Shown piece by piece: positions 18,920-22,286 of a DNA stretch of 49,068 bases (its first letter is position 1; each line of letters begins with the position of its first letter). The notes beneath the pieces were generated by a model that searched no databases, had not been told where the DNA came from, and saw only the letters and a list, made by a program, of their open reading frames with translations. The translations under genes and the position numbers were made by a program. Origin of the DNA: a virus; the IMG/VR virus record IMGVR_UViG_3300046170_000210, positions 1 through 49,068 of that record; one strand, 5' to 3'.

Positions 18920-19022
18920 AGTAGTTCATCATTTTGGAATCACGCTCTGCTAAGAATAGCAGGTAGCATGTGAGAGCGACAACAGTAAAGATGCCACCTA
19001 AGAGATACTGAGTGATTCTCAT
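18891..19022 (-). CDS. 43-residue single-span membrane protein
   Basis: MRITQYLLGGIFTVVALTCY continues LLFLAER: one hydrophobic segment of about 20 residues followed by a charged tail. ATG overlaps the upstream stop. Function unknown. Confidence 0.6.
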   Translation of the reverse strand: MRITQYLLGGIFTVVALTCYLLFLAERDSKMMNYYDSTIQRVR

Positions 19023-20776: not shown

Positions 20777-21385
20777 TCAGCAACTGTCATAAAGCAATGA
20801 GTTTTTGGTAGAGAATGGATGGCATATTTTATACTGTCCCTTGACGTGACTCTTACCAATAAGATCTTTATTGATATAGTGTACAGTCAATGATGGATGA
20901 TCAATCCAATCTGTATATGTCCATGATGCAGATCGTACATATTGATTGCCTCCTTCTTCACATTTCTTTCTTATTTGTGAATCAAGTTTATGTGCTACAG
21001 CATCAATAGTAAACTCTACAACGTAATGTAGTATGCCATGAACAAACAACCCATGAATAATAGGAAGATTGACGTTAGTGTCCTTAACATATCTTGCTCT
21101 AGTATAATCGTTGAAGCACCCGCTACCATTGGTAGTCTTATTAGTATAGTTCTTTGGTTTAATCTCTTTCTCTATGTTAGTCCCGATTTGAATTGCATCT
21201 CTGCCAAGCTTACCAGGAAGAGGGTTACATCCAGCAACACGAGCAACAATATGCTCACGCAAAGTGGAGCTATTGGAGTCGTTGATGTAGACTTCATACA
21301 ATTCCTCAAAAAGATCACATTCTGTTTGTGTAGGATGACCTAGTGCTCGGTCAGTTGCAAGTGAAATTAATTGTTCGGAGAACAT
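20777..21385 (-). CDS. Putative PD-(D/E)xK nuclease
   Basis: The 202-residue form starts MFSEQLISLATDRALGHPTQ; the frame is open upstream only through the promoter. Residues 59-79 read KLGRDAIQIGTNIEKEIKPK plus N, giving Asp63, Glu74 and Lys76 in PD-(D/E)xK spacing, followed by NGSGCFNDYT. I recall a phage family with EIKPKN and a NGGGxFxDFT motif. The rest contains a long helix (VVEFTIDAVAHKLDSQIRKK). It may act in host DNA breakdown, phage DNA processing or defence. Confidence 0.55.
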   Translation of the reverse strand: MFSEQLISLATDRALGHPTQTECDLFEELYEVYINDSNSSTLREHIVARVAGCNPLPGKLGRDAIQIGTNIEKEIKPKNYTNKTTNGSGCFNDYTRARYVKDTNVNLPIIHGLFVHGILHYVVEFTIDAVAHKLDSQIRKKCEEGGNQYVRSASWTYTDWIDHPSLTVHYINKDLIGKSHVKGQYKICHPFSTKNSLLYDSC

Positions 21386-21407
21386 TAGATTGATGGACAA
21401 CTCACAT

Positions 21408-21436
21408 AGTATGGCACATGTATTTGAATATGTCAA
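21408..21436 (-). promoter_or_regulatory. Strong sigma70-type promoter
   Basis: Minus-strand TTGACA, 17-base spacer, CATACT, ahead of the nuclease-like gene. Confidence 0.7.
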
Positions 21437-21453: not shown

Positions 21454-21681
21454 TTAATCGTCCACTGCATCAACCGACTCAATATCACACACTGGCACTT
21501 CATGCTCACCACCAATCATGTACCAGTGCATTAACTGTCCATGATATTCGGGATGTGCAACGTATTCTGTAGTATACTCACGTTCACCACAATACAACAA
21601 CTCACTCTCAGGAATACAATGCTCTTTCAACATTGCTTGCAGTTGCATATGCTGCAATTCTACTTTTGATGGTACTTTCAT
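21454..21681 (-). CDS. Hypothetical protein, 75 aa
   Basis: MKVPSKVELQHMQLQAMLKE, then a Tyr/His/Glu-rich segment (EYTTEYVAHPEYHGQLMHWY). ATGA overlap with the PKHD-type oxygenase suggests coupled expression. No family recognised. Confidence 0.6.
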   Translation of the reverse strand: MKVPSKVELQHMQLQAMLKEHCIPESELLYCGEREYTTEYVAHPEYHGQLMHWYMIGGEHEVPVCDIESVDAVDD

Positions 21682-22286
21682 TTAAATAATGGTCCCCACA
21701 CCCACGATACTAGTACATTTCTAACACCACTTGTAACTGGTTTTACTCTATGCTCCATAAGTGAAGGAAATATTAATATATCACCATAATCTAGATTGAT
21801 CTCTTTTGTATTAAGTTGACCAGCACGTACACTTGCAAACTCAAACTCCCCACCTTCATAATCTTCTTTATGACTGAGCATTAATGTCATTGATAATTTT
21901 CGTGTCATTAAATTGACTTTATCATCACTCATCATCATATCATTATGCCAATCAAAATGATCTTCTTCACTATCATATCTCAGATATTGAACGTTCTCAA
22001 AGAATGAGAGGTCAAATTGCCAAATATCAGTAGCAGGATTTACTTCATTAAATTGAGCGAAGACGAATTTCATAACATCGTCATTTTCAATGACTGACAT
22101 TTTACACTTTCTTCTATCAGAAAGATATGCAGACATATCTTCCTCAGGAGATGTTGATCCTGTTACTCGTGCGTCATTTAATTCTAAGTTAGAAGCATCT
22201 ATATTATTCTCTAGATCTTCCATTAATTGTTTAGGTATGGTAGTTCTTCTAAAACTAAAGAACTGACTATTATATTGTAAACTCAT
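21678..22286 (-). CDS. PKHD-type 2OG-Fe(II) hydroxylase
   Basis: 202 residues. Iron ligands are visible in DHFDWHNDMMM (HxD) and FPSLMEHRVKPVTSGVRNVL (distal His, then Arg for 2OG). Segments LSMTLMLSHKEDYEGGEFEF and LDYGDILIFPS are the classic PiuC/PKHD core. Transcribed from a double TATAAT and coupled to the 21681 gene. Phage PKHD hydroxylases are common in cyanophages; substrate unknown. Confidence 0.85.
   Translation of the reverse strand: MSLQYNSQFFSFRRTTIPKQLMEDLENNIDASNLELNDARVTGSTSPEEDMSAYLSDRRKCKMSVIENDDVMKFVFAQFNEVNPATDIWQFDLSFFENVQYLRYDSEEDHFDWHNDMMMSDDKVNLMTRKLSMTLMLSHKEDYEGGEFEFASVRAGQLNTKEINLDYGDILIFPSLMEHRVKPVTSGVRNVLVSWVWGPLFK

Follow-up and report, generated by a model that had tools for sequence, protein, structure and literature searches.

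What does a short phage gene do when the profile of its family is annotated as of unknown function, and what would its carrier gain from it? The gene lies in an IMG/VR virus record of 49,068 bases, referred to here as the window and analysed over its whole length, whose DNA relatives are Synechococcus phages and other cyanophages, Kyanoviridae among them. Its product matched phrog_3210, the profile with that annotation (E value 5e-86, profile positions 1–193 of 198). With the single protein as query, no family was matched in Pfam, NCBIfam or PADLOC (E value up to 1), and nothing was matched in a sequence search of the PDB. The gene and the sites at its ends are as follows.

20777–21385, minus strand: nuclease gene (phrog_3210) with a predicted PvuII-like fold, 202 aa, ATG at 21385 and stop at 20777; identified by the phrog profile and an AlphaFold2 model
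20811–20814, minus strand: CT repeated (two extra bases) relative to the related loci L001 and L072; C-terminal tail altered
21408–21436, minus strand: promoter-like site TTGACA-17-CATACT upstream of the gene, with TG ahead of the second hexamer

A first-pass annotation had placed a putative PD-(D/E)xK nuclease gene with a near-consensus promoter at 20777–21436. The gene stands; the upper limit of the span does not, as the coding region begins at 21385 and position 21436 is where the promoter-like site starts. The site itself is present as described, occurring once in the window (0.02 occurrences expected from shuffled windows). Both hexamers are retained in 8/8 close relatives compared, with a variable spacer between them, and are absent from both of the more distant relatives compared (L046 and L049). 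As a class, promoter-like sites showed no clear enrichment between positions 19000 and 23700 (24 found versus 19.9 ± 4.0 expected).

Owing to the two-base insertion near the 3′ end of the gene, the last residues of the window protein differ from those of L001 and L072. The latter (NHDO01000094.1) encodes a near-identical nuclease (99 %) and is filed under a ‘Proteobacteria’ metagenome-assembled genome; it is probably a cyanophage contig that was binned wrongly. The same strand of the window also carries a 2OG-Fe(II) oxygenase gene (21678–22286; PF13640, E value 7.9e-14), placed two genes upstream from the nuclease.

Predicted fold and active-site residues

The AlphaFold2 model of the nuclease, built from homologue alignment A2 (mean pLDDT 87.9, pTM 0.87), displays the alpha/beta core of the PD-(D/E)xK superfamily together with its acidic-acidic-lysine triad. 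Foldseek comparison with the PDB returned PvuII chains at all of ranks 1–12 (E values 2.0e-7 to 1.1e-5) and DpnI next at 1e-3, the TM-scores of the PvuII matches being moderate (0.49–0.56 on the query). VIA-align likewise ranked PvuII (Z 10.1–11.9; best 1ni0_A, 136 residues aligned at rmsd 3.3) ahead of the other restriction enzymes, the next entry being Eco15I (Z 8.6), followed by DpnI and NhoI (both 8.2), Hjc resolvases (up to 5.6) and I-Ssp6803I (5.1). At the sequence level, the A1 profile aligned PvuII across the Asp, Glu and Lys positions in a weak match (E value 0.06), and PvuII was not recovered with the single protein or the broader profiles A2 and A3. Because the A1 match was not reproduced with A2 and A3, we rank the fold evidence first.

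The residues that had been singled out as the nuclease triad, Asp63, Glu74 and Lys76, sit in the motif GRD...EKEIKPK, and their numbering (from the ATG at 21385) proved right.

21197–21199, minus strand: Asp63 codon, predicted catalytic; invariant in A2 (39/39) and A3 (22/22)
21164–21166, minus strand: Glu74 codon, predicted catalytic; invariant in A2 and A3, aligned with the PvuII Glu
21158–21160, minus strand: Lys76 codon, predicted catalytic; invariant in A2 and A3, aligned with the PvuII Lys
21101–21130, minus strand: codons of NGSGCFNDYT, residues 86–95; 9/10 residues invariant in A2

All three residues are also invariant in a further set of 24/24 aligned sequences, and alignment A3 reaches down to 26 % identity. 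Phage records yielded 48 homologues, every one from Synechococcus phage ACG-2014d (63–64 % identity; its copy, gp036, has 198 aa), in a search that may leave out records very near the window; further homologues were found in viral contigs, to 26 % identity in alignment. We take the PvuII Asp, Glu and Lys that align with the triad to be the catalytic residues of that enzyme. Residues 86–95, for which a PvuII loop is presumably the counterpart, are a candidate for base recognition. The model and the invariant triad together support the assignment to the PD-(D/E)xK class, with a restriction-endonuclease core that is predicted to be closest to PvuII.

TCGA in genomes with and without the gene

A recognition site should be missing from the genome of a phage that makes a restriction enzyme without a matching methyltransferase, and one tetranucleotide is missing from the window.

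1–49068, no strand: whole window; TCGA 0 seen, 79 expected

The expectation, here and below, was derived from the TCG, CGA and CG counts. TCGA was likewise absent from the gene-bearing G001 (0 seen/273 expected), ACG-2014d (G002; 0/311), G003 (0/179) and G005 (0/98), occurred twice in G004 (2/93) and was absent from 40-kb samples of G006 (0/63) and G007 (0/67); no TCGA spans any of the piece borders of G001–G005. Among the 136 tetranucleotide classes, TCGA is the only one missing from the 743,907 bases of seven carriers, whether genomes or fragments, of which the window is one (G000–G003 and G005–G007), a count that leaves out G004 with its two TCGA, the second carrier clade and distant carriers. 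Every 5-mer missing from these seven is an extension of TCGA, and none of the TCGA-free 6-mers with an expectation of at least 12 is missing from them. The second carrier clade (46–49 % identity) includes G011 (0/86 in 40 kb) and G020 (0/51 in 20 kb); in the carrier G012 (47 % identity), a 20-kb sample contained 13/57.

Over all loci with a nuclease of at least 46 % identity, many of them near-duplicates, 70/74 are TCGA-free, with 6 TCGA seen versus 759 expected. Relatives at 41 % identity or less retain more of the word (77 seen versus 204 expected over 12 loci), and individual distant carriers extend from G016 (0/55) and G013 (3/60) through G015 (16/47) and G014 (58/106) to L074 (10/11) and L078 (26/24). 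Our reading is that some of these distant relatives changed specificity; alternatively, their counts tell against the TCGA claim.

The word is ordinary in gene-less relatives. As controls, we used 14 Kyanoviridae records, of which 13 have complete genome in the title, in which a nuclease homologue was sought over the whole record and none was present. They hold 1,646 TCGA in 800,000 bases, or one per 486 bases, with observed/expected ratios of 0.65–0.89 in 14/14 (40–60 kb of each). When the TCGA sites of five controls were aligned to G001 or ACG-2014d (15 pieces from W01–W04 and W06; one site may count once per genome), 0/333 were retained and 180 had become TTGA, versus 22–47 % retention for ten other words in the same alignments.

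Among the ORFs of G001 and ACG-2014d, the two largest gene-bearing genomes, the nuclease is the only credible one that the TCGA-free genomes share and the sampled controls lack. The 189 ORFs of the window include two that occur in all of G001–G007 and in no sampled control, namely the nuclease and its antisense shadow. Starting from G001 (731 ORFs) and ACG-2014d (682 ORFs), and requiring absence from 75 further TerL-bearing contigs as well, we obtained the nuclease, the shadow and one 70-aa ORF as common to G001–G003 and found in no control. These ORF comparisons covered 40–60 kb of 12/14 controls, the exceptions being W07 and W08.

A panel of TerL-bearing contigs, the best 80 of at least 600 matches, contained five without TCGA; TCGA counts in the remaining 75 run from 3 to 66, at least 0.39 of expectation. 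The nuclease gene was found in one of the 80, ACG-2014d, by a gene search run in two parts, the second of which included no genome known to match. The other TCGA-free contigs, L201–L204, lack the gene and are fragments of 4.6–29 kb that neither support nor refute the association. In a portal-protein tree of 15 genomes (four gene-bearing), which contains one long branch (W10), the distribution of the nuclease gene requires at least two gains or losses.

Proposed function and alternative explanations

We propose that the product of the gene is a Type II-like endonuclease that has a PvuII fold and recognises TCGA, and that the phage is protected mainly by having a TCGA-free genome, a reading to which we assign a probability of roughly 0.86. 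TCGA, a short palindrome of the kind expected for a Type II-like nuclease, is predicted as the target from the purge of the word. The enzyme would be produced in the infected cell, where it would bind TCGA and cut, presumably as a dimer acting on both strands by analogy with PvuII; we infer this cleavage, its timing and its benefit to the phage. The absence of TCGA would act as a self label, the phage's own genome offering no site, and DNA that contains the word would be treated as non-self. Co-infecting cyanophages with TCGA at the density of the controls would be cut, and presumably so would the host chromosome. We lean slightly towards exclusion of rival phages, over degradation of host DNA, as the main driver, since related lineages seem to use different sites (see below); both effects would co-occur. 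The role suggested in the first-pass annotation, an early nuclease that could degrade host DNA or act as defence, fits these results, with promoter resemblance as the ground for ‘early’; the purge of TCGA extends further than that annotation.

The strongest competitor is an ordinary phage-borne restriction–modification system, with the nuclease as its restriction half, a methyltransferase guarding the phage genome and the purge as a secondary effect. The neighbours examined beside the nuclease were METHYLTRANSFERASE and a helicase, at 87 loci, many of which stop at a contig end, where the absence of a neighbour shows little. At 28 of the 87, a DNA methyltransferase (PF01555, E value 1.8e-55) is clearly present no more than approximately 1.5 kb from the nuclease, and in L061–L065 and L068 it overlaps the nuclease or is at most 66 bases away, as such a system would predict; weak or cut-off matches in L079 and L070 are not among the 28. 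The linked methyltransferase has 12 PDB matches, CcrM being the best and M.PvuII (1boo, E value 2e-6) being included. Against this explanation, searches of G001 (192,818 bases) and ACG-2014d (179,110 bases), both TCGA-free, recovered nothing related to the linked methyltransferase, nor was it found in the window fragment, so none of the three shows the linked cognate methyltransferase that a Type II restriction–modification system would have. Furthermore, the control phage P-RSM4 carries the methyltransferase (56 % identity) without the nuclease and has ordinary TCGA. In all, 9/26 records searched gave a match, those in controls W01 and W06 being partial (32–41 % identity). G003 bears the methyltransferase and yet is purged of TCGA, and methylation alone would not require a purge in such a phage. 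Present-day protection by methylation is unlikely as the explanation. Restriction–modification as ancestry is compatible with our reading: the nuclease family seems to descend from a restriction–modification module, of which some lineages, the one nearest the window among them, would have kept the nuclease alone.

Two neighbours were rejected as explanations in their own right. The methyltransferase is not a credible cause of the purge, given that P-RSM4 carries it with ordinary TCGA and ACG-2014d is purged without it. A helicase immediately precedes the nuclease in 11/87 loci and has no match in the window, and was set aside as a partner in the same function on these grounds.

Four of the six residual TCGA sites in loci of at least 46 % identity lie inside a methyltransferase open frame:

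L019, position 7037: TCGA in the methyltransferase frame
L030, positions 7229 and 7415: TCGA in the methyltransferase frame
L039, position 2044: TCGA in the methyltransferase frame

A second alternative places the cause in the host: restriction–modification at TCGA in host cells drove the loss, and the nuclease gene is just a passenger in the lineages concerned. Type II sites are known to be depleted in virulent phages, according to PMC12707154, and many Kyanoviridae are depleted in other tetranucleotides too, e.g. CCGG. However, ACG-2014d and several controls with ordinary TCGA appear, from their Syn7803 isolate names, to have the same host, and WH7803 is the recorded host of W04, W11 and W14, which also have ordinary TCGA. 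The purge also tracks one gene across at least two portal-tree clades and the second carrier clade, and the 14 controls, at 40–60 kb of each, include no phage of the same clades that lacks the gene yet has zero TCGA. We consider host-driven loss improbable.

A modification-dependent enzyme akin to DpnI, NhoI and Eco15I, cutting only modified TCGA, is a shade less probable again. These enzymes are the next folds behind PvuII (Z 7.5–8.6), although they fall 3.3 to 4.4 Z units below the best PvuII chain; the purge also extends to phages in which the linked methyltransferase was not found, and such an enzyme would be expected to put little pressure on unmodified phage DNA. Finally, a PD-(D/E)xK protein of another trade (a homing endonuclease, Holliday-junction resolvase or general phage recombination nuclease) is very improbable: I-Ssp6803I and the Hjc resolvases share the core fold and the gene neighbours vary by lineage, but PvuII at Z 11.9 scores far above both, a four-base purge would be pointless for a resolvase, and homing enzymes, with their long sites, would not be expected to remove all TCGA.

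Known systems and other missing words

The TCGA-cutting endonuclease that we propose resembles known systems in part. PvuII (PDB 1pvu, 1ni0 and 3ksk), which acts as a dimer, cuts both strands and recognises CAGCTG, is the best structural match over model residues 2–172, with Asp, Glu and Lys aligned in the weak profile match; the two also share a methyltransferase connection, through the PF01555 gene near some nuclease relatives and the presence of M.PvuII among its PDB matches. They differ in that the nuclease is 18 % identical to PvuII, is phage-borne and has TCGA as its predicted site; G001, ACG-2014d and the window yielded no linked methyltransferase. Phage T4 degrades host DNA with Endonuclease II and DenB, and modified cytosine shields its own genome; the phage considered here would likewise turn a nuclease on the host while sparing itself, with word absence in place of modified cytosine. 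PacI has a long, rare site of 8 bases. It is a solitary restriction enzyme of Pseudomonas alcaligenes, and PMC3488263 explains its toleration without a methyltransferase by a genome that lacks the recognition site, as we propose for the phage. A rare site is easily absent, whereas here a four-base site expected 273–311 times (G001 and ACG-2014d) is gone.

Phage nucleases directed against other DNA in the cell have also been described. ICP1 Odn is an origin-directed nuclease (PMC8263062) that targets the replication origin of one satellite and uses no general self/non-self word, and the PhiPA3 gp210 intron endonuclease, which harms a co-infecting phage (PMC11620839), is a homing enzyme of the HNH type whose specific target lies in the rival genome. 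Both the toleration of solitary restriction enzymes through site absence (known in principle) and the use of phage nucleases against other DNA are known. In the open-licence literature that we searched, we came across no account of the function of this nuclease gene or of TCGA-free cyanophages, and no phage enzyme whose four-base site, with an expectation in the hundreds, had been eliminated altogether.

The analysis yields a predicted function and recognition site for phrog_3210 in cyanophages from sequence alone. It suggests a form of self/non-self discrimination without base modification, in which a common word is purged genome-wide and its cutter retained, so that TCGA-free carriers could destroy other DNA in the cell while sparing their own genome. 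If general, this would account for the loss of particular tetranucleotides in particular phage lineages, and inter-phage warfare would be readable through word counts.

Such a generalisation, to which we give slightly less than even odds, would hold that cyanophage lineages carry exchangeable restriction-type nucleases, in many cases located after a helicase gene of one family, each genome being purged of the tetranucleotide of its own enzyme, with the absence as a self label that defines mutually exclusive clans; host DNA would be cut, as would that of co-infecting phages purged of a different word. Two whole genomes each lack another word: S-RIM14 (KX349305) has 0 TTAA where 590 are expected, and S-SM1 (NC_015282) has 0 GTAC where 492 are expected. 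Both carry a helicase of the same family (57–58 % identity), with a different small ORF directly after each.

L281:5761–7535: S-RIM14 helicase followed by a 168-aa D...ExK ORF (phrog_6927)
L291:2260–4034: S-SM1 helicase and, directly after it, a 173-aa D...ESK ORF

Among viral-contig relatives of the S-RIM14 ORF, the observed/expected TTAA counts are 0/31 in L296, 1/95 in L298 and 6/40 in L297 (78 % identity); S-BM3, where the relative stands at 80 %, nevertheless has 14/74 in 24 kb. The TTAA case is not clean because of the S-BM3 and L297 counts. S-RIM14 also has an HNH-like ORF in common with contig G031, which is poor in TTAA (1 seen, 221 expected), and this ORF is another candidate for the cause of that purge. 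The model of the TTAA-type nuclease reached pLDDT 50.2 and was left out of the fold search, and the GTAC link comes from a single genome (S-SM1). The TTAA and GTAC lineages may do likewise; the word counts and gene order are suggestive only. The helicase is also present in S-H9-1 (W05) and Bellamy (W10), where, of the 16 palindromic tetranucleotides, the only one missing from the parts sampled is CCGG in W05.

Other tetranucleotides are missing from carriers in the second clade or more distant from the window: GATC and CCGG from G013, CGCG from G014, AGCT and GGCC from G011, and ACGT, AGCT and GGCC from L069. CCGG occurs at most once in most of the Kyanoviridae sampled (W01, W02, W04, W05, W07–W09, W11–W14 and G002–G007), and is present in W03, W06, W10, G001 and the window. 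In L298 (9920–12170), the phrog_6927-like nuclease overlaps a TDPPY methyltransferase-like ORF that is followed by a TSPPY one, an arrangement that resembles a restriction–modification operon.
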